From: Whalleya microplaca | Lineage: Eukaryota > Ascomycota > Sordariomycetes > Xylariales > Xylariaceae | Length of the DNA stretch: 64,000 nucleotides | Assembly: GCA_022497155.1 (NCBI GenBank) | Contig: MU385711.1 | Coordinates: 1,178,001 to 1,242,000 of the forward strand | Reading direction: 5' to 3' | In this document: positions 10,409 to 61,526 of the stretch, piece by piece | How positions within the stretch are numbered: position 1 is the stretch's first letter | Layout: every line of letters begins with the position of its first letter | The notes under the pieces: generated by a model | What the model was told of the DNA's origin: nothing | Databases searched by the model: none | What the model saw: the letters and a program-made list of their open reading frames with translations, nothing else | Translations under genes and position numbers: made by a program

Positions 10409-11773
10409 TCAAGCTACACCCCCGTATGGTTTTACTTCCACTGATTGAATCTTCACGTGGCTAAGTACCTCTTTCTTCGATCTATTTGTTAGTCCCTTAC
10501 TCCAAGTCGCAAAGTCTTTCATGAAGCCGTCAACCGACGCTTGATCTGACGGATCGAACGGCTCCTGGTTGAGACCCATCTGGCGCATATGTGCGCCCGA
10601 CAGCACGGCGCCGAATCCAAAGGACTCCTCGCCTGCAATAACCTTGGTGTCACCTATCAGGGGCTTAATACAAGCCTTGCTCCCCTTCACTAGCAGCTCC
10701 TTTGGTAGTCTTGGCTCTGTGGTGCTCGGCCTCCCTAATCCGACACCATCGAGCCCACTCTGTAACGCATCGACCATGGCTCCCACGGTGCGGATGCCGC
10801 CTGTGATGAAACACCGCGTTCGAGTGACGTGCGGCACGATAAGCTCAGCGAATTCGAGAAAGAACGCCTCCCGCCTCAGCGTGCTCTCCTTTCGGTGATA
10901 CATCCCCATCGCCTCGTACGTCCCGCCACTCAGCTCCACGAGATCGAACCCATGCGCCTCCAGCAGCTCCACCAGCGCCGCCGCGTCCGCCGTCGTGAAC
11001 CCGGCATCCTGAAACTCGACGCTATTGATCTTGATCGCGACCACGAAGTCCGGTCCCGTCGCCGCGCGGATCTCGTCCCCAAGCTCCGTGACCAGGCGAG
11101 CGCGGTTCTCCAGCGCCCCGCCGTACCGATCCGTCCGCCGGTTCGTCGTCGGCGACAGGAACTGCGCGAGCAGGTACCCGTGCGCGCCGTGCAGCTGCAC
11201 GCCGTCGAAGCCGGCGGCCTCCAGATACGCTGCGGCGTGCACGAACGCGGCCTTGATGTCTCGGATCTCGTCTAGACTTGCGGCGTGCGGCTGCGCGAAC
11301 CGCATGTCCGCGAAGGCGCTCCGCGTCAGCGGCACGTCCGATGCCGACACCGGGTCCGCTTGCAGTTCCATGTCCGTCTGGCGCCCCGGGTGGTTCAGCT
11401 GGCCTAGGAAGATCGAGCCGCCTGCTTTGGCCGCGCGCGCGAGCTGCTGGAATGCCTCGAAGCGTGGACCTGAGGGCGGGGCGTCGATGGAGACGATCAT
11501 GTTTCCCGGCGCTTCCAGGTGAGTCACGTCGATCAGGATGTTGCCCGTGATGATGATGCCCCAGCCGCCCTGCCCCCAGTGTCCGTACAAGTTGAACAGG
11601 TCCTGGGTTGGGATGCCACTTGCGGACATATCACCGGCGTCCCAGCTGGCCAGGCGTTCTGTCATGGCGACTTTCATGAGGCGGTTTGGCGCCACGAGGC
11701 GGGAGAACGGGAAGGGGAGAGGCTCTCCTAGGGGCGCTGCGTCGACGTCGCGGCCCTCGTAGCGAGTAGACAT
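10409..11773 (-). CDS. Old Yellow Enzyme-type NADH:flavin oxidoreductase
   Basis: FMN-dependent ene-reductase-type TIM barrel, 454 residues, in one exon. The first ATG is at 11773; the open frame upstream has no ATG. Seen motifs: an N-terminal NRLMKVAMTERLA (FMN-binding strand), GHWGQGGWGIIITGNI, LGQLNHPGRQ, the substrate/FMN signature HGAHGYLLAQFLSPTTN followed by RRTDRYGG, the Arg/Lys site VAIKINS, and a phosphate-binding C-terminal part with FITGGIRT and GLGRPS. This is the longer fungal OYE class (class III-like) used in secondary metabolism and xenobiotic reduction; the substrate cannot be read. The gene stands alone. The last 60 residues are a charged extension. Confidence 0.9.
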   Translation of the reverse strand: MSTRYEGRDVDAAPLGEPLPFPFSRLVAPNRLMKVAMTERLASWDAGDMSASGIPTQDLFNLYGHWGQGGWGIIITGNILIDVTHLEAPGNMIVSIDAPPSGPRFEAFQQLARAAKAGGSIFLGQLNHPGRQTDMELQADPVSASDVPLTRSAFADMRFAQPHAASLDEIRDIKAAFVHAAAYLEAAGFDGVQLHGAHGYLLAQFLSPTTNRRTDRYGGALENRARLVTELGDEIRAATGPDFVVAIKINSVEFQDAGFTTADAAALVELLEAHGFDLVELSGGTYEAMGMYHRKESTLRREAFFLEFAELIVPHVTRTRCFITGGIRTVGAMVDALQSGLDGVGLGRPSTTEPRLPKELLVKGSKACIKPLIGDTKVIAGEESFGFGAVLSGAHMRQMGLNQEPFDPSDQASVDGFMKDFATWSKGLTNRSKKEVLSHVKIQSVEVKPYGGVA

Positions 11774-13572
11774 TGCGGCAGCCTGGGTGTGCTGGACCAA
11801 ACAACTGACTATATAAGCAGCAAGGAGCGTCCTGTTAATACGTAGCTATCCTATGAGATATCAGATAGCCGATCTATCTACCAGCATTGGAATAATCTTG
11901 AAATGGCGATTGCAAACGGTGTGTAGGCAGCGCAAATGCGCCGATATCATAATCCATCGGTAGTTTTGCCATGCCGCGCTGTCCGGCTGAATTGCTAAGC
12001 AGATTAGAAATACGTTCTACTGCACATCTATATTGCAGAAGCATTTACACCATGAGGTTGTAGTCTCTGCGGGGTTCAGGTCTCTGTCGCGAATTGCCTG
12101 AATGGACGTACCGTCTCAACTAGGCCCCTTTTCAATACGAGCCTGGATACTCTAGAGTCTGGTGTACAGGGGACCGCCAAGTGTAGGTTTTTGACACACA
12201 GGGTGAACCTAGTTAGATATTCTGTTTTCTGGTTAACGATTAATAGCTCACACCAAATATCAGTGGTCAGCCCAGACTAGATTTCTAGTTGTTCGAGATG
12301 TTTAGGTCTATGCACCTAGAGATCCACGATGATGGTCAATGCAACAGCGGCAATCCATGGAATCAGTTCACCTAGGCCGGGACGCTGCCTTGAATTTTAT
12401 TATATTGACTTGCAATATCAGTCATACTTAGCTATCCCGCCATAGACATACCATCCAGCTCAATATATGTTGATGATACTTGTAACTCATAGAAAATAGA
12501 CCTACTAATAACAGAAGTTATTCAACATAAGATACCTTTGGCATCAAAGGCGTGGAATACATAATATGTGAGGTTAAAACAGGCTCAGAACCAATCGCTA
12601 GAATAGTACGATTGAGACCCTAGCTTACCTAGCCTTATATCGTTCAACTATTATCTCAACGTGGGCAAATGGAGACTTTCCAATTGAAGGAATGTTTCAA
12701 CCCCGGCCGTGGGTCAGGGGTATACTTCTCGCTTAGTTCAACACTAGACCGTCTTTGGGTTCCCCCCTGAGCTAGTGCATATGGGGCAGGGAATCCTGCA
12801 TGTCAGCATGTTTGTCTGGACTCACGCCGCAGTAGTATCAACTGGACTTCAACCACCATACATATAAGCAAGCATTGAGGAATATGAACTAACAGAATTA
12901 AGAGTTGCACTATGACAATGCCCAACGATCAAGTAGAACCAGCGGTGGGGGATAAGCTCACGACTGAACTCACTTCAGAGAGCGAAATCTATTATCTAAA
13001 AGCTCTCTCTTCGACATAGTACTATAAAGCTTGGCGCTGTCTGAATCTCACGGCTCAATGCGGTACCTACATAAGCGTACATACGGCCCCTCGTAAGCCA
13101 GGATGTTGATGGAACGGGACTCCGAAAAGAGACCCTGTGATGTAACATCGTCATCGAGGCCGGGTGGTGGTGGTTAACGAGAGGGGACCTGCCTGACTCG
13201 TTCAACTCATACGCTAGACATGGTTATCTTCATCCTTAGGCAATCAAGCAGTCAAGGTCATGGGTATCGTGACAGGGCTACCTAGACCCAACAACCCCGA
13301 GCTTGGGGAAGTTGACAGGCCTGACAGGTCGGGGCCACTTGAGATCAAACGGGCATGTTAGAGCTAGTTCTCGCTCAGCCATTGTGATGTACATTCCTAT
13401 ATATGTAACGGTATTTCCACTTGCCTGTATATGTAGTCCTCTGATCTATTTGTGCCTTTCTGTGATACATATTACCGACCTTGTCTATCCTTAACCACCC
13501 GTCGCCGGCCGAAGAAACGGAAAATAGTATATATATATACACTCCTTTTACCACGAGAATAGATATTCCAAG
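11774..13572. other. Intergenic between the oxidoreductase and CFEM genes
   Basis: About 1.8 kb of AT-rich divergent promoter space. No supported gene. A short TA-rich run ends at about 13540, roughly 30 bp before the CFEM start codon, and may act as a TATA-like element; this is a guess. Confidence 0.45.
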
Positions 13573-17054: not shown

Positions 17055-20000
17055 TCAGGGATCCCCCTTCGCCGTTAAGTAGAAGCTTTCATCCATTTCA
17101 CATGCGTCTCGAAGTGTGGCCATCTTCCTGATGAGTTGTAGTATATGGATTCTTTTGACACGATCTGGTTCAAGCATATCGTCTCTTATTATCTCAAGGA
17201 GTTGGTGCAGGTACCAGCTGCAGTCTTTGTGCCGCTGAAGCTTATTTATCCATGCTGTCACGCTAGGTTTCAGTGATGGTAGCTGTTTCTTACTACCTGT
17301 GTCTGGAGTTATGGTGAAGAAAGTGTCCGCGCGAAAATCGTGAATGTCTTGGGCGAACCTCTTCTCTGGAAAGGTGTCCAAGACGCTCTCGCGGCCTTCC
17401 AAGAACCAGGTAACGTATTCGAGGAATACGCACCCAAGACTGAAGATATCCGATGCACGTGAGATCATGCCATCAGATAAGTCGAACTCTGGAGCTCTAT
17501 AAGTCGCTGTCCAGGTGAGACTTTTTGGGTCCTGCTTTGATCGGGACACCTGGGTGTGTAGTCTTCCCAATCCAAAATCTGACAGGGCTAGGACACCCAA
17601 ATCATTCAAACTTGAAGATTGATTTGGTTGGAACCACAGGAAGTTATCTGGCTTTATGTCTCCATGCCGCCCATACAGATCCTGAACATCAATTTTATGG
17701 CCATGTAGCTCCCTTTCGAGCATACTCTGATCCATGGATTTCAAAGTTTCCAGGCGCTCGTTGTGTACGCACTGGAGCGCTGAACTGATCTTATGAAATT
17801 GCTGGGACATCCATCTGCAATGACTTTTCTGCCCAACTAAGTGTTGGTTTCTCCTCCAGAAATCGGCAAGACTTCCTTCTGGCCAATCGAAAAGGAGATA
17901 GTAAGTCGAACCCTGGACCGCAGGAGCTGGCACTTCAAAAGTCGCTAGAAGTTGAATCACGTGCTTTTCCGCTTCCTTGCCAGAGGAGTTATCCATAGTG
18001 AATAACAGGGATGAGATCTCCATGTTGAAGTTATCGCGGTTGTGGGAGGTAAGTCTCTTCAATGCGAAAAACCCGTCCGGATGAGAAATCTATGAAAGTC
18101 TCCCGTCAGCTTCAATGCCATGAAATGAAGTCGAGAACGTACCTTGCGGCCTCCAAAATCGTAATGGCTTCTGTCTATTTTGATCTTATAAACCTCACTA
18201 TAACCTCCGTATGGGATATAATTCATCTGAGACGTTTCATGCTTTTTTGTTTTCTCACTGGACTGCATTGGAAAGACATCACCGAGGTCCAGAAGGTAGT
18301 GTGGGTGTATCTTCGTGTTGAACTTGACGTACAGAGCAACCAAACTATAGGACCACGAAGTGAATTGCTGTCGGTAAGCAGGTCGTCGAGAAACCCCATT
18401 GATGATGCGGTGGTGAACCCCATGATACCGGCAATACAGCCTATAGCCAGGGGGGCCTGATATATGCAGTGGAAGACATCGATCATCCATTCCATCATCC
18501 ATGATTTCCGGAAGATCTTCTAAACACCCCATTGCAATAAGGACGGCCAATAATTTTCGACGTGGAGATGGCCCAAAACATATCTCTTCTGTCAATCTAT
18601 CCTTGTCTGAAAATTCTCGGAACCATGGACCGCTCACAATAATTCGAACCCTCTCGGGCGTGATAATTCTTGGGAGTTTATTTCTCGGTACGTATCCCTT
18701 GGTTGAATCTAGAGCACTAGCGACTTTTGCATAATCAAGCTCTAGTTCTATGGTTTTCACAAGGGCGGAAGCATCAAACGATATTGAGTTGTATGTCTTG
18801 GATTGAAGACGTTGTTGGGAGGCATAATCATTAGTAGGATCAAACTCCTCACCTCGGGATGAGATCTGTCGAACCCTTTCTGGATCGTCTAACCCAAGCC
18901 GTAGGCGGTATAGAGGGTGAGCACGATAGGAATAGGATCTCCGATTAGATGAACTGACCTGTAGAGAAACATCCCCCGTATCATCTGAGTGGGAAGGATA
19001 GGTGATGTCGACATCACGTTGCGCGGTAGAAGAGGCTGCATTAGAAGCATTAGGCGGAGGGGACAAGAGTTGTCTTAAAGACTCGATATTGTCTACGTGG
19101 TATTGAGCAAAAGCAAGTGCTTTGAGATTCTTATCCTCAAGTTGTGTGAGCCCTTCGAGTGGCTCAAAATGAGTTTCGATATACCCAGTTTCTCTGTCTA
19201 AGTTCAATCGATCTTCTGGCGTAGGCATGGATAGTTCGTGGTTTACCGTCACCTCGTCAAAAATAGGAGGTGGTAACGAGTCTCTTGACACTTGACTGTT
19301 GACCTGTGACTCGTCTTCTGGAAAGTCGTTTATTGACGATACATCTGGATCGTCTGGCCACGGCAACGAGCGCCAAGCAAAAACTCGTAGGTGGTGACCG
19401 ACGTGTTCTTCAAGATTCTCGACTGTTTCCAAAGAACACAATGGACAATATGTGAGAGGAGTGGCAGGCTGAGCACTAATTTTGATAATGGAAGAAAGCT
19501 GGTCCTCTGAGAAGGTACCGGCATGATCGATCTTCATATGTTCTTCAAGCTTTTCAGGTTCGTCGTACACTAGTGGCTCTTCATGGTTTATATCGAGGCA
19601 TTGCCATTCTGTTCGATGTTGAGTTGTCATATGCGATAACCATTCCTTGCTCGACGAATAAATCTGACATGATCTATTGCAATGCTCATGGACGCAGATA
19701 TACGGGTTTAGGTCCTGCTTGACATGTTTCCTATTGCTAAGTCAGACGTGGATGTGTATGCGTATGTACGAGTTATGGTAAAGCGCAAAGCGAACCCGGT
19801 AATCAAGATGTGATAACACTTACGCCCAAGTCTCGTTATTGGATGCTACGCTCTCCGGCAGGATCAAATAACAGTAAGGACACGTAACATCTTTTGTCTC
19901 GCTCTTCGACATGGGACGAGGGGGGACAAGATCTTGTTCTTCCATGTTCCGGGGAGTACATATCGCTGTAGAAAGGGGCTGCCCTGCCTTTTGGTAAGTA

Positions 20001-20916
20001 CTTTGGCGCACTGTAGTTGCAATCCTGTTATGTTGAGGTGTCATAGTCTGTTCTGGGGGAGCTAAGCTTTTTGATACTTGTAAAGGATATGTTTTCTTTG
20101 ATGAGGATGGTTTTGAGGATTTTCTAAGTGTTTCTGCTGAGTTGGCGGTATACTGAACTGGTGGTATATCCCATTTCTCGTGGCGTGATCTCCTATACAA
20201 AACTTGGAAGTGGCGTGTGATCATTGTCTCGATTAGCCTATTGGTCATAAAATCTTCTCTACCTTTGAGATCACGGTTGATAAGGAATTCGAAGTATGTC
20301 TTTAGGTTTTCACGATAAGCCTCTGTGGCTGCTTCTGATTCTTGACCTTTAGAATCCGGTAATAGGAAGTCCTTGGCTCGTTTGTTCTGATTCACGAGGC
20401 TGGCTTTTCTGACCAAGTTCGAAAGTCTATGCAACCAGTCAATGCTCTCGTGGATAGACTGCAAGATCCTAGTCAAAGTCCAATTTTCGAAGTAGTCTTT
20501 TTCCGAAGTCAAATCAATGTTACGTTCACCGTCGTCTGCCATGACGTCGCTCGTAGTCCGTCCTTCGCGAACTTGTAAATAAGCCTCTGTTAGTTTTGAA
20601 AATTACTCAGATATCGCCGATCGTGTATGAATCACATACGTTGACAAAGTCGGCGCTCAATTTTATCTAACTGAATTGAAAACAGTTCTTGGACGTCGGC
20701 GAGATATCTGATTCGGAAGTCCAACGACATTTGGTAGTCTGCGAATACGCCAATGTTGAAGGCCCACAGCTTGAAGCGAGAAAGACCGTCTTGAAGACTG
20801 TTTCCCATACGATTGGCCTCGCTAGGTTTTAAATCCCAGCTTGTGTCGATGTTATGGTGGAAAAGATCGAGGCATCGCTTTGAGCGCTTGCCAATGGTCG
20901 TTAATTTTGCCGCCAT
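17055..20916 (-). CDS. C2H2 zinc-finger / protein-kinase fusion, NLR-like fungal protein
   Basis: Large four-exon gene (about 20640-20916, 19824-20586, 18143-19730, 17055-18089), about 1220 residues. The 5' edge of exon 2 could be 15 nt further in. Order of parts: an N-terminal helical domain (about 1-90, with FKLWAFNIGVFADYQMSLDF) of the type heading many fungal STAND proteins; a long linker; a fungal-specific C2H2 block (about 330-470) with CPYC, then YICVHEHC, EWLSHM, WQC, CPLC and HVGHHL; a second linker; and a C-terminal protein kinase (about 850-1190). Kinase motifs: glycine loop YGGYSEVY, FALKRL (VAIK lysine), HGDIKPDN (catalytic loop), DFG in SDFGLGR, and YRAPEF. All catalytic residues are present, but HRD is HGD, so it is a non-RD kinase. 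It is divergent from the protease gene. A signalling role in allorecognition or defence is inferred from architecture and neighbours. Confidence 0.8.
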
Positions 20917-21338
20917 AGCGATTATTGAAAGCTTGGATACGTCTATATTTACGTAGTTGGGGAACTAATCTAACGCCTTATGAAAGATTGGAATAGTGTG
21001 TGATGAGTACACCCGGTCGAAGCTCGGCTTATGGTTATATGTATGGATAACTATGGGAAATGCTGTGTATTGGTAGACGTGTTCTCCGCGCGGAGACTTG
21101 CTCGGAGAAACTGAAGTCCGACTTACTGCAATTGTGTACCTATGCACGACAGTCTGGTAGGACTTTTGATACTGGCCTGTTATTGTAGCATGTTTCCCTT
21201 GGACATACTTTTTCGTTTGCACTCTGTTGTTCAGCCTTGAATCATCTCGTCCCAGCAAGAGCACTGTTTAGTGCAAATCAACTTGTCGCAAGGTCCATTT
21301 CTACGGACTGTATCTGTTTAGGTTATGGTATTATCCCG
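20917..21338. promoter_or_regulatory. Shared divergent promoter region
   Basis: The only spacer, about 420 bp, between the kinase gene (minus) and the S8 protease gene (plus). Both transcripts must start within or close to it, so co-regulation is plausible. No specific binding site was recognised. The protease frame stays open upstream of its first ATG to 21237 without another ATG. Confidence 0.5.
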
Positions 21339-24300
21339 ATGGGAACCGTATTTAGTAACTTAGTGACCACGAGCGCTCCAGAGACAATCAACCGTCTCAA
21401 TCTAGTGACCAGGAGCGCTTCAGAGACAACCAACCACCTCAATCTAGTATTAGTCGTTCTCCCCCTAGTGAGAAAATTAACCAGAAAGCTGGAAATGATT
21501 AGTAATAAGGACGATCTGAGACGCGACTACTTGGTCGATTTCCAAACTTCGGCTGGTGTTCTTCAACATCACCTTGAAATGATCGAGGAGGATAGCGTCA
21601 AGGAGGATGGCGTCATCGAGTCATACAATCACCAGATAACTCAACTAGCTGCCTGCCTTGAGGAGGTTTTCAGCATTCGGATTATCAATCCCAGTCAAGA
21701 GGTCGATGTCGCGGAATTCGAATAACTAATAATTGCCACTAACGAGATTGTAGATGTCCGAGTACCCCCGACTTAAGCTGATCGCCTCGACTCCAAACGT
21801 TTTAGACCTTGGCATAGAGTATCTGTTTCATCCCGCAGCTTGGGAGGATTGGCAATGTTGGGATAAACTACGATGCCGCCTCGAGGAGCTTACCGACGAT
21901 CTACAGCGACACGGAAATAACGTAGACGAGACGATAGAGATCAAGTTATTTCCAATTCTTCGAGAACCAGATGACGACGTATATGCTTTGATTGGTGGGG
22001 TGGTTGGTGCAATAATGCCTTGCAAATGCCATCCGGGGTCTGAGCAAGCCCTCAGGGTCCGTATGGGGACGTACAAGGAAGGAAAGCCCAAGCCCAAGCC
22101 CAAGTCCTTATGTGTCTTGCTCGCAGAAGACGAATCGCTGAGGCAGTGGCATGAAATTGTCATCCATGGCGAGTCGAGGTATCATTACACTTCATGTTTT
22201 CATCGTTATTATTGTTAGCCACTCCTGCTGATGTAATTGTCTAGACGAACAGCCGAACTCTCAATGGGCGGTATGGAACATTGCAATCCAGACAGATCAG
22301 GATATATTCCGTGCCTGCACAGTGCCTTAGGGGCATATACCACACCGCAACTCTTGCACATAGACCTTCATGATGATGCCCTATACCGTTCTGGCGAGTT
22401 TCAATCCTATATAAGCCCGGTTCAACCGGAATTCTTAAAGGAACATATCAGCCTAAAGGATTTCCTGTCCGGAGAAAAAGAATGGCTCCCAGAATCTAAA
22501 TGGGCTCTTGCCGTAATTCTTGCTTATAGTCTTCTCTACCTCTGCGCTGAGCATCCGCCAAAAGGGTGGCGGAAGCAGGAAAACATCTTTTTCGAGAACA
22601 TCCTTCTCTTCAAGAATGAGACCGATATCCTCCTGCAACCATTTATTAAACCATCACAACTGAAACAATACAAACCGGCAACTGACAAGGTGTTTAGGAG
22701 TTACGAACATCCAGAGATACTGGAGTTTGGAGTCATTCTCCTACAAATTCAACTAGGAGAGAAGCTCCAATTTCGAGATATTGTGGACAGTAACGATCTT
22801 CTCTCACGTGCTTCACAGTCCTTTAATGATAAAAAGTATCAAATTGAGTCGCTCCCGTACCGCAAAGTGATTGAAACATGCCTGTCGCCAAATATCTTTA
22901 ATAGAACAGGGAGTGACGATCGAAAGCTGCGATCCCTGCTGTACCAGAAGATCATTCGACCGCTCGAGAAAAACCTGGCAGTGCTTTATGACCACCTGAA
23001 AATCAATGATCTAGATAGAGAAGCAGCAAAGCGGTGTATAATTTCGATACCTTCGTCGTACTCTGTATCACCTCTTACAGATAGCAATCACTCTGTGCAA
23101 CACCGAAAGAACGGCCCACACATTACACATCATAACTACGATACAATTACTCCACTACAGCTTGCAAGTTGCACCGAAGCTAGCCTAGCAACAACGAGGG
23201 ATATTTCGTGCGAATCACCTAGCCCTTTCGCGATGCTATTTGATGCGAGGAAAGCTACTGAGGTTGAGATGTAGGCATTGTCAATTCCCTGAATAGTAGA
23301 GATCAACTCTTGACTAATAATTCTAGCAGCATTAAATGGGATGAGTGGCTTAAGGAATTCAAGCACTTTCGACAACGCATCCTTCCAGATGCGGTAGACC
23401 CGAAGAATCAACAACGAGTCCCGGTTACAGTTATCGACACCGGTATTGACGGATCTCACCCCTTTATCCAGTCGAAGGGGTGGAAAAGTTACGATAAGAA
23501 TGCCGTCAATAACCATCTCTTTTGCGATTTTGCTGAGCCAGATCTACTCCACGATAAACACGCTCCCATTGACGAAGATGGCCACGGCACATTCATTGCC
23601 GGTCTTTTGCTTCAATTGGCGCCAGATATCGAATTATCTGTTGCAAGAATCGGCAAAACCCGATCGACAATACAGAATGACGCTCAAATAGATGAGAAGG
23701 TTGCACGTGTAAGAACCCCCGATCCTTTCATGACTACCAAATGTTAATCGTTAGGTATGCTTTCCTCGACGCACAGGCTATTGAACATGCCGTTACTACG
23801 TGGAGGACCCACATAATTTCATTATCGTTTGGTTGCGAGGATATATCATACAAGATTCGCGACGCTATCGAGGAAGCCCTGAAAAACGACGTCATCATCT
23901 TAGCGGCTACTGGCAACTCGGGCAATCTTAAAGACATAGCGTATCCGGCAAGAGAGCCAGGTGTTTTCCAAATATATGCTACCGATGGATTCGGAAATAA
24001 GACTAACTTTAGCGCCCATTCCGATGGCCGCGATGACCAATACTTTATCATGGGCTCCGGCGTTTTGTCAACGTGGCCATCAAGCCTTCGGGCGCAAGCT
24101 GAATCCGCCGGTACAGTCGTAGGCTGCAATAATCGTAGTAATGGGCACAATCACTCGGAAAATGGATGTGGTGTATGGACGGCGATGTCCGGGACGTCGT
24201 TTGCCACCCCTATCGCCGCGGCCCTGGTGGCTACTATCTACCAGTTCTATGAAGCGAACAAGGCAATTGCCTCAAAAGTTGTACTCAGTGCTGAAAGTGA

Positions 24301-24535
24301 GAGCAGATTTAAGACTCCCAAGGCTATGAAAATCATCCTTCTGCAAATGAGCATAAAAACATCCGCGGATCGATACAACGTTCTTCAGCCAGCGAGGGGA
24401 GAAGGCAATCTTTTCAAGTTTAAACCGCACCAAAATCAAGGACCGACTGATGCACCCGCCCGAAACATGGCCGGTGAAACAGCAATCCAGTTCTTTTCAT
24501 CTCGACTTTCTCAAATTCTCGTGGACAAGCTATGA
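21339..24535 (+). CDS. DUF7580 - subtilisin-like (S8) serine protease
   Basis: Five exons: 21339-21701 (donor uncertain), 21754-22178, 22245-23270, 23327-23708 and 23777-24535; about 984 residues, in frame throughout. Residues about 30-560 match the fungal DUF7580 pattern: a helical N-terminus and a core with KWALAVILAYSLLYL, ENIFFENILLF and EILEFGVILLQIQLGEKL. Residues about 625-984 form a peptidase S8 domain with an intact catalytic set: Asp in TVIDTGIDG, His in EDGHGTFIAG, oxyanion Asn in AATGNSG, Ser in MSGTSFATP. There is no signal peptide, so it should act in the cytosol. S8 domains on such N-termini occur in fungal NLR-like and allorecognition proteins, and in Podospora the protease HET-Q2 cleaves the gasdermin HET-Q1. 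Here the convergent next gene resembles a gasdermin, 135 bp away. Weak points: the first intron uses a poor GTCGAT donor, and the start is unproven. Confidence 0.82.
21360..21443 (+). repeat. Tandem 42-bp repeat inside protease exon 1
   Basis: Two adjacent 42-bp units (21360-21401 and 21402-21443) encode 14-residue repeats LVTTSAPETINRLN and LVTRSASETTNHLN, near the start of the predicted protease. Recent duplication is suggested by high nucleotide identity. Confidence 0.8.
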
Positions 24536-24670
24536 ATACTATTTCTGCTAGCTATAGATTCAGGGTGTCAAGCAACTGTACATGCCAGGTCAATGCCAGA
24601 TCATTATGAAACTCATTGGTTCATATACTCCCTATATAGGATATAGCTTGTACTGCTGTCAAAGCATCTA

Positions 24671-25564
24671 TCATCCATCGATTTTCTTAGCCGCAACTTG
24701 AATGATCAAGCAAGAGCAACTATCCTCTTCGTCTACGGCCTCAAATTTTTTGTCCTTTGCAGGCAACAGTTGCCCGAAATCTTCCTGCTCATATGCGACG
24801 CTATCGATTTCAAACGCAGAATACTCATCTTCGTCGTCTCTATTCATCTGGATCTTGACCCCCCTATCCCCGACACTATATAAGTCACCGCCCTTCTTAT
24901 AGTCTCCCAGCTTGAATTTGTTACGCCATGTAACTCTCAGTTTGCGCAGGCGGTAGGCAAATAAGAAGGATGCCTCTGGTTTCGCTTCAAAGGTTACCCC
25001 ATTCGATCTCTGTTTGCTAGCCTCACCGCCAGCTTGGAGGATGCCTTTAGGACCTATTGTCGCCTTGAGATTAGCAGCGAGACTCAAGGTATCGGAATCA
25101 TCGTATGCGATTTTCCCAGGGTTCTTGACAATCTTCAGCCCTGTGATCATGTAGAGTGTTTTCCCCAAGTGACGATGCTCCTTGAGCCATTCCTCCACCG
25201 TCTCAACCTTGGCAGTCCGCTCGACATAAGTCGGGTCTTCACTAATTTCCAAGAATTGCGTCTCCAGAAAAGCCTTTTCCCAAGTTTGAACCTCATGTTG
25301 ATACTGGGCGCTCAATATTCCGGCTCTTATCATGTTGACGAAGTGGGTGAAGATGTCGACCGATGATCCACCCGTCTTTGTATCAGTAGCACTCCATTCG
25401 TAGTCTTGTGAGATGCGCGGTTTGAGTATGCCGTCAAAAGGGAGAGGCTTGGTCAGCCGTTCAAAAGGCTTTCTAGGGTCAGTGATAACCTGGCCGAGTT
25501 GGATTAAATCGTCAGGCTTGTAAATGGTCGTCGGGAGAATGAAATACGTCTTGTCATGCTTCAT
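24671..25564 (-). CDS. Gasdermin-like pore-forming protein (candidate)
   Basis: Intronless gene of 297 residues, convergent with the S8 protease. Residues 1-235 follow the pattern of fungal gasdermin-like proteins: an N-terminal strand with LIQLGQVITDP (20-30), a central segment with TLYMITGLKIVK (137-148), a glycine-rich stretch and SFLFAYRLRKLRV (199-211). The last two parallel the animal gasdermin strands around LYVVTE and AFRVRQL. Residues about 236-297 form an acidic tail (DDEDEY, AYEQEDF, VDEEDS) that could be an inhibitory segment removed by proteolysis, as in HET-Q1, itself about 280 residues. Gasdermin-like proteins insert into membranes and cause regulated cell death. The family call is by eye and needs a profile search. 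No signal peptide. The ATG at 25564 is the only good start. Confidence 0.6.
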   Translation of the reverse strand: MKHDKTYFILPTTIYKPDDLIQLGQVITDPRKPFERLTKPLPFDGILKPRISQDYEWSATDTKTGGSSVDIFTHFVNMIRAGILSAQYQHEVQTWEKAFLETQFLEISEDPTYVERTAKVETVEEWLKEHRHLGKTLYMITGLKIVKNPGKIAYDDSDTLSLAANLKATIGPKGILQAGGEASKQRSNGVTFEAKPEASFLFAYRLRKLRVTWRNKFKLGDYKKGGDLYSVGDRGVKIQMNRDDEDEYSAFEIDSVAYEQEDFGQLLPAKDKKFEAVDEEDSCSCLIIQVAAKKIDG

Positions 25565-26451
25565 CGTAGCAATTTTCTGGGCTTTTTTTCAGATTAGATG
25601 CCCTCGGGATGGATTGAATGCATATGTGCGATCGCCGCGCGAAGGTTTTGAGTTCCAATGAAGATGAGTGGCTTTGGTAACTCTCAAATAAGTAGCCCTC
25701 GGTGTGACCGGACCTTTTGCAAGCAGCGAATACCGAAATCTTTGTGCAATCGCATTAAGATGTATAAAATTGAGATTCATCATTTAATATTCATCATGCT
25801 GAGCCTCATCTTCACGGTACAAATGTAGATTATTCTCAAGAGCCTGGTTGACTACCTGCCACCCTGCTATGCTCGGGCAGCACTTCGCCACTCTTGAGTG
25901 TGTGTTAAGAAATGGTGTCCACGACAGCGTTCCTATCAAACGCTCGGTTAGAAGCTCAATACAACGATAAAGCTGACATAGAATCCCGGAGGCCTCTTCA
26001 CATCCATCCATCCAGTCATCCTTTAAATTCGGGCTTGCCTTTCCAATTTATTGGTTGCATACTACATGTCAAGGGACCAATAAAAGAAGTGCCGAATATT
26101 GAACTGCATGTAGGTGTGTAAGACGAAACCTACATGATATCGTAAATGATAGGGCGCCATCGAGTTCGGCTCCTGCAGCCTCTCGTTGGCTTTGATCAAG
26201 TTTCTTCAAACAGGTTTGCGGCCCATGTTGACGTCCGTGGCGCCTTCAATGATGCCTGTCTCTGCTGTCAGATATAGGATGAGAAAAGACAGAGCCCTAT
26301 CTAAGTGGACAGATGCATATAGAGTTGATAGAGCTAGGGCAAATTCTGCCTTACCAATATGATCGCCCAGAGGAACAGTCAGAACAACCGGAATGAGCTC
26401 TTGACCCATCAGGTAAGGATGCTTATCACAGTTACAGTGTGTGCAATGATC

Positions 26452-26634
26452 ATTTAGGTGCTGCCGTGATCACTGAAGTTGACTAAATAGAATAATGTAA
26501 GGTTCTAAGATCTAAAGGATTCCTAACAGCTTAGAAGATCCCTTGTAAGCTTATGGATCTCGGAACAATTATTGCTCCAAGATCTATAAGCTTAAGGCAC
26601 TATAATTAATACCCCTATTATCGTGACAATACTA
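26452..26634 (+). repeat. Dispersed repeat, copy 1
   Basis: Diverged direct copy of the sequence at 27546-27726. Shared landmarks in the same order are ATTTAGGTGCT, CTCGGAACAA, a TATTGCTC-like block and a terminal CATAA/CTATAA. The right end (26608-26629) also matches 22 bp exactly at 33370-33391. No coding capacity; element class unknown. Confidence 0.45.
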
Positions 26635-28359: not shown

Positions 28360-28911
28360 TCACAGTATCTTCGCCATAACTAGTTCTTCTTCGAACTCCC
28401 CGATTGTCGTAAAGCCTTTCTTTTTATATAGCTGTTCCGCCGGCTTATTGATTTTCAATACAGCTAACCAAGCCAGCTCAAATCCCTCATCCTTGGCCAT
28501 CTTGATGGCAGCCTCGAGAAGTTCGCTCCTAACTCCTTCTCGGTGCTTAGACGGTTCGACATAGAGCATATCAATAGCTACATGTTTCTTATCCTCCCAG
28601 AATTGTATGCCCGCTGGGTCGGGCCCACACGGGGACGGATCTCCACGGGACAGCAGGGTGAAGCCAACGATTTGCTGAGCCTGATCCTCAGCCACGAGCA
28701 TTGTCTTCTTCTCGTTATTCATCTGATCCGAAATCATTCTCGGGATGAACATGTCACGAAAATATTGCTCAGGGGGGGTTTCTGGTGAACCGGCGTATTG
28801 CAAGGGGGCAGCTCTAGCTCCCAATTGTGCAATAGTGGTCGCTTCAGAAGAGGTGGCTGATCGAATTGTAACATTCGTATTTCCTGATGAATTACCAGCG
28901 AGGTCTGCCAT
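28360..28911 (-). CDS. GNAT-family N-acetyltransferase
   Basis: Acetyl-CoA-dependent acyltransferase of 183 residues, one exon, start at ATG 28911 (MADLAGNSSG). The frame stays open upstream to 29052 without an ATG, so a further 5' exon is possible but not supported. Recognisable GNAT parts: an N-terminal strand TIRSATSSEA, beta-4 with IVGFTLLSR, motif A around AIDMLYVEPSKHREGVRSEL, and the motif B/C end with PAEQLYKKKGFTTIGEFEEE. In motif A the second glycine of R/Q-x-x-G-x-G/A is an Arg (REGVRS), which is unusual and may weaken acetyl-CoA binding. The proline-rich loop DPSPCGPDPAG is atypical. Substrate unknown. Confidence 0.8.
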   Translation of the reverse strand: MADLAGNSSGNTNVTIRSATSSEATTIAQLGARAAPLQYAGSPETPPEQYFRDMFIPRMISDQMNNEKKTMLVAEDQAQQIVGFTLLSRGDPSPCGPDPAGIQFWEDKKHVAIDMLYVEPSKHREGVRSELLEAAIKMAKDEGFELAWLAVLKINKPAEQLYKKKGFTTIGEFEEELVMAKIL

Positions 28912-31046
28912 TCTATTGTTGATTCCCTTTGGCGATCGACTCCTGGTTTCCTTAGACAGTCTAGGGAAAGGTATGAGTGAATGTTGAAATGAATAATATG
29001 GCTCCGGTGAAGTTGTGTTATCTATAGTATCCTTTGCGATAGGCTCTTGCAAAATTGTCAGATTAGCCTTCAGAACGAGTAGACAAATGCTACTTACGTA
29101 TAGTCCTCTAGTCGCCGGTAGTCTGCGCTTCTGAAAGGCGTTTCTCTCTTCTTGTGTATAGAGTATATCTCGGGGCCAAGCCAGATTTTGGTAAATGAAA
29201 ATAGGAATGTCTGTGAGTGAATATTTAGAGGGAATCCAGGGTGATGTTGTTGGCTATATATGTGTGGTGGAAAGAGAGTGTATCCATTATTCGAGGACAT
29301 TGTTTGGGTATTGTTAAGATCGTTTGTTAGGATCATGTATATAAGAGGCTGTTCGAAGAACAGCCTTTTAGTTAGTTCTTCGTGCAACAACTGTGTTGTT
29401 TTGCTACCTTATAGGTTCGCCGTGTGATAGGTATGGTGTGTGATGCAGTCCCTCGAAACCATTGTCCAAACATGTAGCTCGAAGCTGAGTGGACGTAACC
29501 TGTCCACTGCTCATTTGGGTAAATGCAATCAAGGTTGAATGGAAAAGTTTTGATGTGGATGATGTGACTATTCTCTCAAAGCGGAGTGGGCTGGTCGTGT
29601 TTATATAGTAGTTTTGCTGCACGCGTTTTGGATTTGGATGGGGAGAATTTAAGGTGGCAATCATCTCAATGGGGGAAGGGGCCAAGATGAGCTGATATGT
29701 AGCAGCCAAACATTGACCAGAACATATCCACAATATGAAATCAAAATGATATGGCATGAGATCACCAGACACACAGAATATCTGGAGTACATTCTATCTC
29801 TGAGTGCCTACTTAACCACACAAACGACCTCCTTACAAACTTCTCTATAACATTGATTATTGTTCAATGGGCAGGTGTATTTGTTCTCCCCGTGCTTTAC
29901 TTTATGGTTCGAAGTAGTTGCTGATAGCAAAGTCTTGTTAAGTTTGGACAATTTTAGTGCAGCCATGTGGACATACAAGTTTGTATGTTTAGCTTAAGAT
30001 CACCTGGTTTAAGGGGCGTTTGTAATTATGAAATCTCTTCACAATCCTACCTTACAGCGTAAATTACGGAGGTACATTAACATACAAATTGCTGTTGTCC
30101 AAGCCACGATGGCTTATTGAGTGCACAGTGAACCTAGAATGGAAAGAGCCCCTTACGTATATGTACAGGAGGCGGCTATATGTATGCCCGGTCAGCAATC
30201 AGCCTCAGCCGATAGCTCTATCTCGATAAGGTAGTTCCATATGTGCAAAGTGAGTGGGAAAATGAATTATGCAAATACAGGTCAAATCTCCTGATAAAAC
30301 CGAGTTGTATTTATCAACGGCGATCGAATACGTACGATACGGATTGATGGAGTTAGCTGGCAGATAGAAATATTGGCATGCACGTCTGACATTTATGTAT
30401 GGCGTCAAAAATATGCTTTTCCATTGTCTAGAATACCACTGCATGGCCACATTCTCGCCTTCTTCACTCCTAAACTTTATCCACGTCTCGATGACTTACT
30501 CGTCTGCTTTCGTCCCTTTAAGACTCACAGTGCTAGGTATTCTGCGTATTATCAGAAGCTGAAAGTCACTTGATATTCCTAACTTGAAAGTGTTACACCT
30601 CCTCTAGCTAAGATGATTGGCTCGTCGCAGGTAACGTAGATCAAATCCCACCCACCAAATATGTTATCGCCGCGTAGATTTACTATCACCGACAAATGAA
30701 ATGCCAGTTGTAGCAGCACATATTCATGAAGATCTTAGCTCTCTTAGCCTTCCACCAAACGAAGCTATTAGCACAGCTGCATATTGAAGAGAGCCTAGCT
30801 ATCCTGTGCTGGTGGGATTTGAACCCAAAAAGTAATGTGGTTGCTTAAGGCATCCCCCAACCCTTTCATGCAAGTCACATCAATATGCCTTGCATACTTA
30901 CACATATATTATTCCGTAAATTCTACTTAAATTTCTTATGTAGACGTCGTATTTACCTTCTTGTTAATGCCAAGGTAGTGTTCGAAAGTTTATGACGAGA
31001 GGATGTCTTAGGTACATATGCCTAAGATCCGGATAGGCCTCCATGT
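28912..31046. other. Intergenic, about 2.1 kb, no confident gene
   Basis: AT-rich; minus-strand open frames at 29094-29390 and 29404-29772 have no recognisable domain. It contains a short perfect hairpin (29346-29366). Two mutually inverse short blocks near 30638-30655 and 30810-30826 (GTGGGATTTG-like) are too weak to call an element. Confidence 0.45.
29346..29366. repeat. Short perfect hairpin
   Basis: Inverted repeat with 9-bp arms AGGCTGTTC / GAACAGCCT and a 3-nt loop, followed by TTTTAG. It may form a structured RNA end or be chance; no function is assigned. Confidence 0.5.
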
Positions 31047-34639: not shown

Positions 34640-35659
34640 ATGCCAAACACTATGGATGACGATGTGCAAGACGGCAAGTCTACAGACACGGCCGAACTAT
34701 CATCACCTCTCACCTGGACCCCGGAACACAATGCCTACACGCTCAGTGCATCTGCAGTTGAGAATAGCTCCATCCCCGACCTCAAAGAGTCGCTAGCTCT
34801 CGCTCGGATATTTCTCCCTAAATTTGATACCGACTACGTTCAATTCCGCAATGAGGTGGTCCGCCACGTCCTCAGCCACCGTTCAATAGCCTTGCTTATC
34901 TACATGCTAGACCATGAAGGGGTACCCGTTTCGCTAGTGACTCCCAATATCATCTTCGCTTGGGCGTCGAGGCCTCTCATCGAGGCGCTTGTTGCGCGTG
35001 GATGGGATGTCAACGTGCAAGACGTCGCTGCTTTTAGTAGGAAGCGCCTGATTGACTACCTCGTTCGGGAGCGGTATGGCAAGGAGGATATGGCTCGGTG
35101 GCTAGTCGAGGAGAAAGGGGCGGTAGTTAACAGCGAGCAATCCGACACTGACGGCGACAATGCGAGAGCGCAACCACCGCCCTTGCTCGCGACTTGCGCA
35201 GCCTTTGGCACGGTTGCCATGTTCAAGTTTCTCGAAGAGAAAGGCGCTAGGCCCAGTCGACGTATCTTGCATGTGGCCGTGGAAACAGCCGCCGGCAGAG
35301 GCGCAGACCCCTGCTGCGAGGTCCCCGCGCAGAGCCCCGGTAGAAGGGCGAGAGATATCGGTATTGAGATGCTGCGCTATCTTGTGGAAGAACGCCAGCT
35401 GGATATCAACGCTATGGATGCTGATGAACCTTACCAAAATCCAACAAATAGCCACTGGGGTACACCAATATGCTACGCGGCGCGTTGCCGGAATGGAGCT
35501 CCTGTTGTGAGATGGTTACTTAAGAAAGGGGCCGATCCTACTTTCAAGATCCCTTATTCCGGCTTGGATGCTCTCGCATATGCTAGAGAGGCCAAATGTG
35601 ATGAGATTCTCAGTGTGTTAGAAGAGTGGCAGTGGACAAGGAACCAAGGCAATGATTAG
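34640..35659 (+). CDS. Ankyrin-repeat protein
   Basis: Single-exon protein of 339 residues. Degenerate ankyrin-like units are seen: SRPLIEALVARGWDVNVQD, PPLLATCAAFGTVAMFKFLE with KGARPSRRILHVAVE, MLRYLVEERQLDINAMD, then GTPICYAARCRNGAPVVRWL with KKGADPTF. The layout (helix-turn-helix units ending in D-x-N or ADP turns) is typical of fungal ankyrin proteins that bind other proteins. There is no other domain, signal peptide or membrane segment. Starts at 34640 and 34652 are both possible. It stands alone, so function cannot be inferred; such proteins are highly duplicated in filamentous fungi. Confidence 0.8.
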   Translation: MPNTMDDDVQDGKSTDTAELSSPLTWTPEHNAYTLSASAVENSSIPDLKESLALARIFLPKFDTDYVQFRNEVVRHVLSHRSIALLIYMLDHEGVPVSLVTPNIIFAWASRPLIEALVARGWDVNVQDVAAFSRKRLIDYLVRERYGKEDMARWLVEEKGAVVNSEQSDTDGDNARAQPPPLLATCAAFGTVAMFKFLEEKGARPSRRILHVAVETAAGRGADPCCEVPAQSPGRRARDIGIEMLRYLVEERQLDINAMDADEPYQNPTNSHWGTPICYAARCRNGAPVVRWLLKKGADPTFKIPYSGLDALAYAREAKCDEILSVLEEWQWTRNQGND

Positions 35660-37135: not shown

Positions 37136-38250
37136 ATGTCTAGTGTCCGAAATATCACAGTGCCGTGGGTTCCACTTGCGGAGTTCGACTGGTCCTTCGG
37201 GCGCAGTGGTCCATTGCCCTGGAACCTAACAGTTTGGTAAGGTTTCCTAGGCCTGCATTCCATTAAGCCTTCGTAGGCTCTACACAGTCACTAACAGAGC
37301 ATAGGTCTATCCTTGCCGTCTTCACCGCGCTCCCCATCTGGACGACTGTCGAGCTCACCGTCTGGGTACTTCACACCTTCGAGCGCTGGCGCGGAATATA
37401 CTTTTGGTCCGTCCTCGTTACAACATGGGGCGTGTCGATCCACGCCGTCGGTTTCGTTCTCAAGTTCTGCGTACCGGAAGCAAATTGGATCTTGGCAACC
37501 GTACTCGCTGAGATCGGCTGGGTTGCCATGGTCAGCGGCTTCAGCATCGTCATGTGGTCACGATTGCACCTTGTTATCAGGTCGAGCCCGCGGACCTTAC
37601 GTCTGGTACTTGCAATGATCATTCTTAATGCGTTCTTGTTCCATATACCGACAATTATCTTTCAATTTCTGCTCTCGAACCAGGCAACTCACGCCCGATT
37701 TCTCCCGTTCATGAACATCACAGAGAAGGTGCAGATTGTATGCTTCTCGATCCAGGAGATCGTTATCTCGGTGATCTATGTCTGGGGCACCCTGAATCTG
37801 CTTAAGTGTTCGCTTAACGACAAGGCCAAGAACACTATGACATTTCTGATTATCGTGCAAGTCATTGTTATACTCATTGATGTGCTGGTCATCGTGCTCG
37901 ACTACCTCGGGTATTTCACGCTCAAAGCCGTCTTGCACTCGTTCAACTATGCCTTTAAACTGCAGATAGAGTTCGTGGTCCTCAATGAATTTAAACACAA
38001 GATAGCCAAGGGTGGGATCACAGGTAATGGTGGGTTTGGTGGATCGTTGTCGTTCGACAATAAGCTTCTTGGTTTGCCCAACGATAATAACACTGTAGAT
38101 AATAACTCAGGCGTCACAGTGGTTGTGGCTGCGGGTGATTCTTCACTGAGGACTACCCAGTCGGACTTGCTCGGGGCCCAGCACGGGCATGCGGAGGAGC
38201 AGGATGCTTTTGAAATGCAATATCTGGGCAGGTATGGGAGAGCTCTCTGA
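37136..38250 (+). CDS. Fungal multi-pass integral membrane protein
   Basis: 348 residues from two exons (37136-37236, 37305-38250); the 68-nt intron splits a Trp codon and keeps frame. After a short extracellular-type N-terminus (with an NIT and an NLT glycosylation sequon) there are about seven hydrophobic helices between residues 33 and 245. The first includes ILAVFTALPIWTTVELTVWV, followed by a loop FERWRGIYFWSVLVTTWG. The C-terminal 90 residues are cytosolic, Gly/Asn-rich and acidic. The pattern is that of a Pezizomycotina-specific seven-helix membrane family (possibly DUF7703; name not certain). A receptor-like role is possible but unproven. Confidence 0.8.
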
Positions 38251-45089: not shown

Positions 45090-45601
45090 CGAAACGGTTA
45101 AAATCACTGTGAAATTGGTTAAAACCACTGTATAATCTCAACCTAAACTCAATACAGTTAATAGACTAGGTACGTGCACCGTGGTACTTGTTTTTAACAA
45201 ACACAAGTAACTTTTCTAGCGGCCTGGCATTTGAATTTTCTTAACAACTCCCACGTAACAACAGTCATTAAAGCTATCATAATGGCTGAACTTAAAGACT
45301 TGAACCTCTTCGAGAATAATGACAGTTAGAGATAAGATAAGATAAGATAGGAAAGCGAGCGCGCTTAGATTTCATTGCAGTTTTAAAGGAATTGAGGCTT
45401 GTTGAGTGTTGTGTGTAGTTGAAGAGGTCTGCAGCAGCAAGGTTGAATGACTGTACGGGGTTTCAGAATGTAGCGTATGTACATTCATTTACTAGTATGT
45501 AAGTACTTCAAGGTAGGTAACTTGTCTATCTAACTTTGTTTGGTTTAGGTTGAGATTATACAGTGGTTTTAACCAATTTCACAGTGATTTTAACCGTTTC
45601 G
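45090..45601. mobile_element. Non-autonomous inverted-repeat element (Mutator-like MITE)
   Basis: A 512-bp element with perfect 59-bp terminal inverted repeats at 45090-45148 and 45543-45601 (outer end CGAAACGGTT). It is flanked by a 9-bp target-site duplication CTCTTCTGC at 45081-45089 and 45602-45610. The long TIRs and 9-bp duplication are hallmarks of Mutator-like elements. The interior has no protein-coding frame, so it must be moved by a transposase encoded elsewhere. The 100% arm identity and intact duplication indicate recent insertion. Confidence 0.88.
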
Positions 45602-45610
45602 CTCTTCTGC

Positions 45611-47912
45611 TAGAGTTGAAGTGGTTACCACCACAATATACCTGACTCTAAGCCAAATTCCGCATACGCTTAAAAACCCTAAGTGATTTCATCCTATGTG
45701 AAGATATCAGTCAGTGCATAGAGGGATACCTTCGTCTGGATACCTCTTCTAATTGTTGCGCCTGTCACACGGCGATTGGAGCCAAGACCTGTCGTCGACC
45801 TTCAGACTTAGATTGAAACTTAGAACCATAAGCACCCTCAGAGGCCCTAGAGAACTATTAGTCAAATTGATATATTCCAAACCCTGAATCACAGCCCTTG
45901 TCACAGCGCCATATCATGAGGAATGCGGGCGTTCGTTGATACTTCATAGATCTAGCCCTAGGTATGGTTCAAAGGGGGCTTTTATATATAAATTGTAACA
46001 GCGATATATTCATTTGCATTTTACCACACACTGTAATCTATTACTTCATATGAGTTCATTGTCTTTTGCAACTCTCACTGTAATAAATCTTTCCTGCCAG
46101 TCGTGTGACTGGATATCGCGTTGAAAGGCAATAAGGGGTTCTACATATTAATGTGGTTCTTTATTGGGTCATCCTCAGATCTGATCTAAGTCGATGGAAC
46201 ACGATCCAGATCTACCTATCCCCAATCGGTTCAAACACTCCACGGTCTGACCCGCTGCAGGCTCTGAAGTCATCTCAAGACCTAAACTGACAATTGTTCC
46301 CAGAAATCCTTCTTATGAAGACTGTCCCATTTTCCGATAGCTATTAGATCAGTTCATGTCTAGTATATGTTGCATTCCGTCACAAGAGGTTCCTGCGTCG
46401 TATTTACTTGACTCGTGAACAGATTCAGATCTTCTGTATTCAGGCTGTAGACCGTCAACTCCGAAGAAGAGACATGCCAAGGCATGTTGTCTTTGCCTCA
46501 ATGGCATGTCTGTTACATCATATCATGATGTAGCTTTTCCAGACCCTAAAACAGCCATCAAGATTCCATTGAAATCTCCTGTTTGAGGCAAATCTCAACG
46601 CAACTATTCATGTACTCACTGTAGTCGTGACTAAAGAGTCTAGACCTAAAATCATCACGTTACTACAAAATTTCTAGAAGGTTTCTAGCGCTTACTCAAT
46701 CATATATCATGCCACTAAACAATCTGATTCATGGAAGCAGACGAAAATGCGTCCTAGTTCTGCTGGTCGGACACATGAGACCTCAACGACTAGATCGTTT
46801 CATTCTAGCTTCTCCTCCACTGGCCTAAAGCTGAGAAATGGCCCGGCCCGCATAACATGAAGTAACCATACGCCTACAAACGAGCTGGGTTCATCGATGA
46901 TCTGAAGAGTACAGCGAACCCAACAGGTCCACACCAGGGAAAATGTAACAGATAAGAGCTGATGACGGAATTCTTCCAATTCAAAACTATGAGGTATCTA
47001 TAAATGAAATAAAGTACAGTTCGGGTCAAAGTACACATCGTGGCAGCGATGAAAGAATCACACTTGTCACTCGGTGTTTCACTGCGAGTAGGTAGGTATT
47101 CAGTGTACCTATACCGCATAGTAAATATCCATTTGCATTTTGCTAGGTTGAGCCTAACTATATATGCGAAGTACTTCGCGTTGCAGCTTCAACTACCCTA
47201 GTCCAGATGGTTGGTGATGTTTGAGTCTTCTCGGGATCCTGATATTGTCATATTGTCAAGTCGCTCTTCAAAAGTGGCTACCCGTTAAGCAGAAGTAAGG
47301 GTTAAAAGGAAGACTTCTTTCTTTCCGTGGAGGAAATGGGACAGTATACTAGTCTTTGCGAATAAGTACATGACGCCTGTTCAATACATGTACCTAGGTA
47401 TTCGGTGTATAGATTGAAATATCAACTCGAATATGGATGATGTGATAATGCTGCCGTCATTGACTTTGGTACGTCCTAGACGGAAAATCTAGAGTCCGTC
47501 GGCCCGAAGACGGAGATAGGTAGCTGCCGGATCTTCCGGACTTAACAATCGTAAGAAGGTCACCTGATTGGAAGTCGCATCACTACATCACCATGCATTC
47601 CCCACCAACGAAGCTCAGCTCTAGTTTTTTTTTCATGATTTGAGTATTCTAAACTTATTCATGGTCATGACATGAGCAGCAGCATGGTACTCTTTCAATT
47701 CACGGTCGACAATCGCTCGTGATTGCAAAGGACCTCTTATCAATTGGCTCTGCTCAAATTTTGCCAGCTGACAGTGCCATCTAGGGATCCGGATTTAAGC
47801 TTGCTGACAATACGCCGTAATCTTTTTGCCAGCTCGATCCGGCCTACAAACCACCGTCACATCCGAACAGTCCTGTGCCCGTCGGTTTACTCCCGCGTAC
47901 AAATTTTCAAAG
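45611..47912. other. Intergenic, no gene seen
   Basis: About 2.3 kb between the transposable element and the DUF1279 gene. One TACCTAGGTA palindrome at 47391-47400. No supported frames. Confidence 0.45.
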
Positions 47913-60700: not shown

Positions 60701-61526
60701 TTACACTCTTTCACTAACCCAGATCGCGCCTCGACATCCGGCCCTTATAACGCTAGTCAACAGCCAATGTGGTTCGGCCTTCTTCGCATCATGTTCAAGA
60801 GCATGGTCCAAATGCTCCAGCTCCTCATCTCGTATCCTTCTCAACGTCTTCGTCAGCTCTTGAAGGTCCTCGCCCGCCTCGTACCCTTCTGCTTCCCATT
60901 GTTCGAACATTTCCAGCAGCGTGCGTATCTGCTCATTGTAATGGCCTCCAATCTCGGTTTCCACCGCTTCCGTGCAAGCCATGGCGGCCTCCCGCCCCAT
61001 GATTGCTGTCGACCAGCCCAGACCCGTTGCCATGATGGACCATAGCGGGTATAGGGCCGTGGGGCGCACGCGATGCTTGGAGATCAGGGAATTGAAGGTG
61101 TTTAGATGACCTTCTTCTTGCGCATACATATGCGCCATCAAGGGTCGGAGGTGTGGTTGTGAGTTTACCACGAGGGGCGTCTGAGCCGCGTAGATCAGAA
61201 CGGCGGCTAATTCGCCTGCTTGGTTCACACGGAGCTTAAGGGTATTTCAGCATAATGACTAATTAAACTAAAAATTTGGTTGTTATAAGATTGGCTCTTA
61301 CAGCAGAGGATAGAAAGTCCCGTTGCTCCTTGGTCAATGGCTTACGCTTGGGTTTCGAAGACTCGGATGAGGGAGGCAGTGGACTTGTCACGGCCGTGGC
61401 CTTGGCCTTAGGACTGGTAGAGAACTGTCTCCGGCCTGGTTGGAAGAAAGCCGGAACCAGAAAGTCACGGCAATGCAACTGGGCATGTTGGCGCATTATG
61501 TGCGGGGGAATCCTTAACGAAGACAT
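60701..61526 (-). CDS. COQ7: 5-demethoxyubiquinone hydroxylase Coq7/Cat5, mitochondrial
   Basis: Di-iron monooxygenase of the penultimate step of ubiquinone synthesis, hydroxylating 5-demethoxyubiquinone at C5 (C6 in the older ring numbering) at the inner mitochondrial membrane. Two exons (61302-61526, 60701-61234; 67-nt intron, phase 0) give 252 residues. The first 75 carry a mitochondrial presequence with GRRQFSTSP. The ligands of the two irons are all visible: Glu in LRVNQAGELAAVLIY, EExH in AQEEGHLNTF, Glu in EAVETEIGGH, and ExxH in DEELEHLDHALEHD. Length and motif spacing match the family. The ATG at 61526 (MSSLRIPP) is used because the open frame upstream has no ATG. Confidence 0.94.

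Follow-up and report, generated by a model that had tools for sequence, protein, structure and literature searches.

The window analysed here, 64,000 nt of contig MU385711.1 (positions 1,178,001-1,242,000) from the genome of the ascomycete wood fungus Whalleya microplaca (Xylariales; 48.1 Mb in 114 contigs), carries a three-gene locus made up of a fungal gasdermin gene, a subtilisin-type (S8) protease gene and a third gene that joins a zinc-finger front half to a protein kinase. All three open-frame genes were confirmed: the third gene on the reverse strand at 20916-17055, the protease gene on the forward strand at 21339-24535 and the gasdermin gene on the reverse strand at 24671-25564. According to the gene models, the third gene and the protease gene diverge from a spacer of 422 bp (20917-21338), and the protease and gasdermin genes converge across 135 bp (24536-24670), which agrees with the spacing of about 420 bp and 135 bp given in an earlier note on this DNA. 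Proteins deposited for the host are identical to the protease model (100%) and nearly so to our initial model of the third gene (99%). Homology and conserved gene order exclude chance as an explanation of the three-gene locus. By homology, its core pairs a gasdermin with a HET-Q2-like protease, an arrangement already known.

The gasdermin and the neighbouring protease

The gasdermin gene consists of a single exon and encodes 297 residues. Pfam assigns the product to no family at E <= 1, and it was therefore identified through sequence searches of the PDB and through fold searches. The sequence taken singly has one PDB match at E <= 10, HET-Q1 (E 0.001), and each of the five family-profile matches at E <= 1 is to RCD-1 or HET-Q1 (best E 6.6e-10). 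The predicted structure matched the gasdermin fold. By profile and predicted fold the product is a true member of the fungal gasdermin (fGSDM) family, as its gasdermin-like features had led the earlier note to propose. The family alignment delimits an acidic linker (residues 226-256, with a candidate cut residue at F251) and a C-terminal tail (residues 257-297), which together occupy 24674-24889 on the reverse strand. A net-negative linker and a D-F/Y-G tail motif (family consensus DFGxSLPAKDKK) are present in 31 of 31 aligned gasdermins, and the tail may be inhibitory. F251 was also considered as a universal cut site and rejected, the position being aromatic in just 20 of the 31 rows. Searches of the Whalleya genome with P0001 and the distant P0031 as queries found no other gasdermin of the same subfamily; distant subfamilies could remain.

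The protease gene comprises exons 21339-21701, 21754-22178, 22245-23270, 23327-23708 and 23777-24535, separated by GT-AG introns, and the hand-made model matches the deposited 984-residue protein over its full length. Pfam recognizes DUF7580 at residues 225-508 (22063-22980, forward strand; 86.4 bits against a cut-off of 27) and Peptidase_S8 at residues 636-902 (23418-24286, forward strand; 84.6 bits against 21.8), each domain spanning an intron. The catalytic residues of the S8 domain had been described as intact, and all are in place (Asp642, His691, Asn779 and Ser873). No signal peptide was seen on inspection by eye. In fold searches with the whole protease model, the PDB matches listed and the leading viral ones are subtilisins; these matches therefore bear on the S8 part and do not probe DUF7580. 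On domain content and homology the protein is a HET-Q2-like (Q2L) S8 protease.

The N-terminal helices of the protease have no Pfam match. The protein begins with MGTVFSN (21339-21359, forward strand), a motif match to the N-myristoylation consensus (PROSITE pattern). The motif occurs in 6 of the 37 listed protease relatives, the query included, and in five of the first eight, three of them near-identical Fusarium proteins; it is lacking in Cephalotrichum, and the models of Trichoderma asperellum and T. aggressivum seem by eye to begin downstream. At E <= 0.1 the Pfam matches of the protease are confined to DUF7580 and Peptidase_S8 and those of the third gene to two kinase families; neither NACHT nor NB-ARC, the domains by which a fungal NOD-like receptor (NLR) is recognized, is among them. 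The genome holds six DUF7580 places, and no second DUF7580-S8 pair was found among them: the other five have no listed S8 match nearby.

Several comparisons are suggestive of DUF7580 being a degenerate, or dead, kinase fold. A DUF7580 profile (7 of 23 members; the underlying alignment uses 7 of 10 DUF7580 stretches) gave 26 PDB matches at E <= 10, all of them to IRAK4 kinase and all weak (best E 0.2). One of the seven members matches Pkinase, weakly (E 0.17), and an hhalign comparison with the third-gene kinases, run without realignment, covers 11 columns only (p 0.038). Two other loci of the genome bring DUF7580 and kinase sequences together. L021 (1147-3084, reverse strand, contig C41 of the Whalleya genome) encodes a HeLo domain followed by DUF7580, which is overlapped by a match to the kinase profile PF07714 under its own cut-off (E 0.011); this is an MLKL-like layout. 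L027 (2195-4468, reverse strand, contig C64) encodes, in one uninterrupted frame, an ordinary kinase domain with DUF7580 after it, perhaps a kinase/dead-kinase tandem, and the one-to-one profile match between DUF7580 and its C-terminal DUF7580 part has an E of 4.7e-7, which is not a library-scale value. If the fold assignment is true, the dead-kinase DUF7580 of the proteases could be a target of the neighbouring kinase.

The pairing of gasdermin and protease recurs in other fungi. Relatives of both proteins were found in six other species, and in all six the genes are associated: locus tags are consecutive, and the contigs of equal size, in T. asperellum, Fusarium kuroshium, T. aggressivum, T. 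simile and Mycothermus thermophilus, and in Diaporthe sp. PMI_573 both relatives are on contigs of 266089 bases. Synteny is judged here from locus tags and contig sizes of the listed relatives, and the protease relatives are those listed at E <= 1e-10 after scoring the 7994 candidates that shared most words. A DNA-level scan with the gasdermin alignment found no relative in the viral and genome contig collections, neither of them a fungal one. The expectation that the pairing is conserved in fungi is thus upheld; what had been named in advance as speaking against the pair, the lack of both a gasdermin structural match and conserved synteny, was looked at, and the pair stands. In trees of the gasdermins (30 of 31 rows) and the proteases (22 of 37 rows, from an alignment of 23), Whalleya falls in open forks, and we therefore claim neither horizontal transfer nor patchy loss. 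About 80% of fungal gasdermin genes adjoin a protease gene, about 63% an S8 gene (PMC10197012). We consider it very probable that the gasdermin and the protease form a functional unit.

Gasdermins underlie the het loci het-Q1/het-Q2 and rcd-1 (PMC12881547), and the same protein classes make up the HET-Q allorecognition system. The Whalleya pair might accordingly belong to a het locus of this kind, at which alleles or idiomorphs differ by strain and cell fusion exposes a foreign gasdermin to an active protease. However, het-Q1 and het-Q2 are idiomorphs (PMC12881547), and in Whalleya both genes are intact and converge on a single contig across 135 bp. Side by side is the arrangement expected of a pathway and not of its split form. 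We regard a het locus as improbable, and because het-Q1 and het-Q2 are idiomorphs the Whalleya locus does not fit the definition of a HET-Q het locus. The earlier description of a HET-Q-like pair holds for the protein classes and is not supported in its allorecognition sense.

The third gene and its two halves

The third gene (17055-20916, reverse strand) has four exons, 20916-20640, 20571-19824, 19730-18143 and 18089-17055, with splice sites derived by hand from the deposited protein. The deposited protein implies acceptors for exons 2 and 3 that are shifted onward by 15 and 6 bases relative to our initial model; they were adopted because they fit the Fusarium relatives better. The product of 1215 residues, with PF26082 in its precomputed annotation, combines a helical/C2H2 zinc-finger N-terminal half with a C-terminal kinase half (Pkinase, 50.4 bits against a cut-off of 31.7). 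The kinase region, taken as the BLAST segment of residues 850-1215, lies at 17055-18208 on the reverse strand and spans an intron. Since the alignment has the ALKRL lysine, the HGD catalytic loop, DFG and APE all kept, the kinase is probably active, and of the non-RD type.

Segment-wise BLAST against 11 listed relatives splits the protein in two, with an exchange zone at about residues 575-620 (18896-19033, reverse strand). Residues 1-575 match two Fusarium proteins best: front-half identity is 42-48%, and residues 1-300 are 47% identical to CEP52_011908 and CDV36_001785 alike. In the zinc-finger stretch the identity is 61% to CEP52_011908 and 42% to CDV36_001785, the model of which is without part of the stretch, against 25-32% to the genes of Hypoxylon and its kin (Hypoxylaceae). 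A Massarina protein (P0080) reaches 37% in this stretch and 24% over the front half. Residues 620-1215 have no match in the two Fusarium proteins; they match the kinases of Hypoxylon and its kin (54-65% over the kinase region) and that of Bombardia (47%). The junction lies inside one open frame running from stop to stop at 18059-19741, and the fusion in Whalleya is therefore no annotation artefact.

A tree of ten of the twelve front halves (P0073 and P0078, short or absent there, were omitted) joins Whalleya with Fusarium at support 100/100. The approximately unbiased (AU) test rejects a grouping of Whalleya with all six Hypoxylaceae rows (p 3.9e-9); the groups compared were picked after the BLAST results had been seen, and the tree program warns of long branches. 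The third gene might instead descend whole from the zinc-finger kinases of Hypoxylaceae type, its front half having simply evolved fast without any exchange. Genes of this general layout are present in Hypoxylon and Hypomontagnella, and nearest to the Whalleya and Fusarium group the tree places P0070 and P0076, two of the six Hypoxylaceae rows (97/96, subject to the same long-branch warning). Given the AU result and the opposite identities of the zinc-finger stretch and the kinase region, we consider native descent of the whole gene very improbable. Two divergent zinc-finger kinases of Hypoxylon texense, Hte_010780 (P0074) and Hte_010782 (P0071), have near-consecutive tags and lie on equal-sized contigs, which suggests a local array of the family.

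The front half accompanies the pair in Fusarium. In F. kuroshium the gasdermin (CDV36_001783), protease (CDV36_001784) and zinc-finger gene (CDV36_001785) are consecutive, and in F. oligoseptatum the zinc-finger gene CEP52_011908 adjoins the protease CEP52_011907. At its end CDV36_001785 (P0079) carries part of a HET domain (positions 1-92 of 146); CEP52_011908 (P0077) has no HET match, and its model stops just before the corresponding part. The partial or missing HET ends of these two proteins, and the short zinc-finger stretch of P0079, may represent gene-model errors or decay. By alignment, the partner conserved with the pair is the helical/zinc-finger front half, and the kinase half is lineage-specific, a tail that has been exchanged. 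A kinase gene had been proposed earlier as an associate of the pair; that association persists for the N-terminal half of the gene and not for the kinase.

Surroundings of the locus

The flanking genes are of ordinary kinds by Pfam: an FMN oxidoreductase (10412-11845, reverse strand), a GNAT acetyltransferase (28363-29253, reverse strand), an ankyrin-repeat exon (34640-35656, forward strand), a DUF7703 gene (37267-38247, forward strand) and COQ7 (60704-61246, reverse strand). A dispersed repeat of about 205 bp lies at 26423-26628, about 860 bp past the gasdermin start; scoring 40 of 299 candidates gave copies, 77-90% identical, in at least some 40 other places of the genome, and one of these, C55:9766-9967, sits about 800 bp past a kinase paralogue (C55:7980-8948). 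An element of about 510 bp at 45090-45601, bounded by inverted ends some 85 bp long and present also on contigs C58, C11, C20 and C34, looks like a small inverted-repeat transposon. It is followed at 45784-45905 by a repeat of about 120 bp found in more than 30 places of the genome at 85-95% identity.

A candidate cell-death module and its known relatives

From the domains and their arrangement we infer the following course of events. The gasdermin would be kept inactive by its short C-terminal tail. The protease would act as the sensor, with N-terminal helices, perhaps lipid-anchored via Met-Gly, a dead-kinase-like DUF7580 and an active subtilisin domain. Once signalled, it would cut the acidic linker of the gasdermin (about residues 229-256, with F251 as the candidate site), and the freed N-terminal domain would form membrane pores and kill the compartment. 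For the pair, such a release of the gasdermin by a sensor-protease is the most economical reading and follows what has been published on pairs of this type. The third protein would be part of this unit too: the conserved helical/zinc-finger half might work with the pair (as an adaptor, a sensor or a brake), and the output domain at the C-terminus would be exchangeable, a kinase in Whalleya and HET in Fusarium. It might license the protease by action of the kinase on the DUF7580 part, provide a second output, or restrain the pair. A pyroptosis-like cell-death module that includes the third gene is, in our judgement, the probable and best explanation of the locus as a whole, and membership of the third gene in the gasdermin-protease unit, taken by itself, is somewhat favoured.

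A number of observations weigh against this explanation. The gasdermin structure model has middling confidence (predicted local distance difference test, pLDDT, 67), and 7 of the 13 named-organism gasdermin relatives have no protease partner among the matches listed. The link between DUF7580 and kinases comes without a single significant library match (best E 0.2 against the PDB; p 0.038). The Fusarium HET fusion depends on annotated gene models and on a partial domain (92 of 146 positions), and the three-gene order has been seen only in Whalleya and a single Fusarium group. For Trichoderma no third gene is listed (proteins of at least about 670 residues; 7991 candidates scored). Hypoxylon and its kin have zinc-finger kinases, yet none of these fungi is among the 13 named gasdermin matches; the architecture therefore need not serve gasdermins. 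The last two observations, together with the published clusters, which are mostly described as two-gene (PMC10197012), agree with a unit of gasdermin and protease only, beside which the zinc-finger/kinase gene does a job of its own, such as transcriptional or stress signalling. However, the N-terminal half of the third gene stands beside the same pair in another taxonomic order (CDV36_001783-001785, and CEP52_011907/011908 for the protease only), and the Whalleya half resembles those Fusarium genes more than it does Hypoxylaceae-type zinc-finger halves. We therefore hold a two-gene unit to be rather unlikely.

The stimulus of such a three-gene module might be a parasite. Anti-parasite immunity against a mycovirus, bacterium or mycoparasite, with the protease as receptor and allorecognition playing no part, would be in line with the spread of relatives across several orders, and multidomain proteases beside gasdermins have been read as putative sensors (PMC12881547); this option is plausible, at slightly less than even likelihood. 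The triggers and regulation of fungal protease-gasdermin pairs are named as an open question in the same 2025 review (PMC12881547). The third gene, its front half kept with the pair across orders, is a concrete candidate for the missing regulator, and the same platform bearing a kinase or a HET end amounts to a natural experiment. More tentatively, the zinc-finger gene could be an obligate third member of one class of gasdermin modules in fungi, its front half a sensor or adaptor docking on the DUF7580 protease and its output arm swapped between lineages. If so, one receptor platform would drive gasdermin pores and, alongside them, either phosphorylation or HET/TIR-like signalling, and it would represent a non-NLR receptor family with effector domains exchanged as in fungal NLRs.

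Among known systems, HET-Q1/HET-Q2 of Podospora anserina is alike in combining a fungal gasdermin with an S8 subtilisin and in the short C-terminal piece after the linker. HET-Q1 is cut at F238 with the loss of 40 residues (PMC10989679), against 46 in Whalleya at the candidate F251. HET-Q2 is a protease of 388 residues (PMC10989679) encoded by an idiomorph of het-Q1 (PMC12881547), whereas the Whalleya protease has 984 residues, with N-terminal helices and DUF7580, and its gene coexists with the gasdermin gene and has a third gene alongside. RCD-1 of Neurospora crassa differs in being activated by co-expression of two allelic variants and not by a neighbouring protease (PMC10197012). MLKL and the fungal HeLo-pseudokinase proteins are comparable in having a possible dead kinase fold behind N-terminal helices; in Whalleya, however, the output is a protease domain, the helices lack a Pfam match, and the relation of DUF7580 to kinases is suggestive. 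The zinc-finger kinases of Hypoxylon and its kin (P0070-P0076) resemble the third gene in the kinase region and depart from it in the zinc-finger stretch, and their front halves, taken as a set, do not cluster with Whalleya. The Q2L proteases clustered with fGSDM genes offer the same setting, a multidomain S8 protease beside a gasdermin gene (PMC10197012, PMC12881547). The portions of these accounts drawn on here contain neither DUF7580 nor a zinc-finger third member with an exchangeable kinase or HET end; the 2025 review does mention kinase-like fusions and clusters of two or three genes (PMC12881547). In the literature searched, the scope of which does not extend to the primary survey of Clave et al. 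2022, no third gene with zinc fingers and an exchanged end was found described. Gasdermin-protease clusters are thus already known, and what is new here is the third gene, with its conserved zinc-finger front half and exchanged tail.

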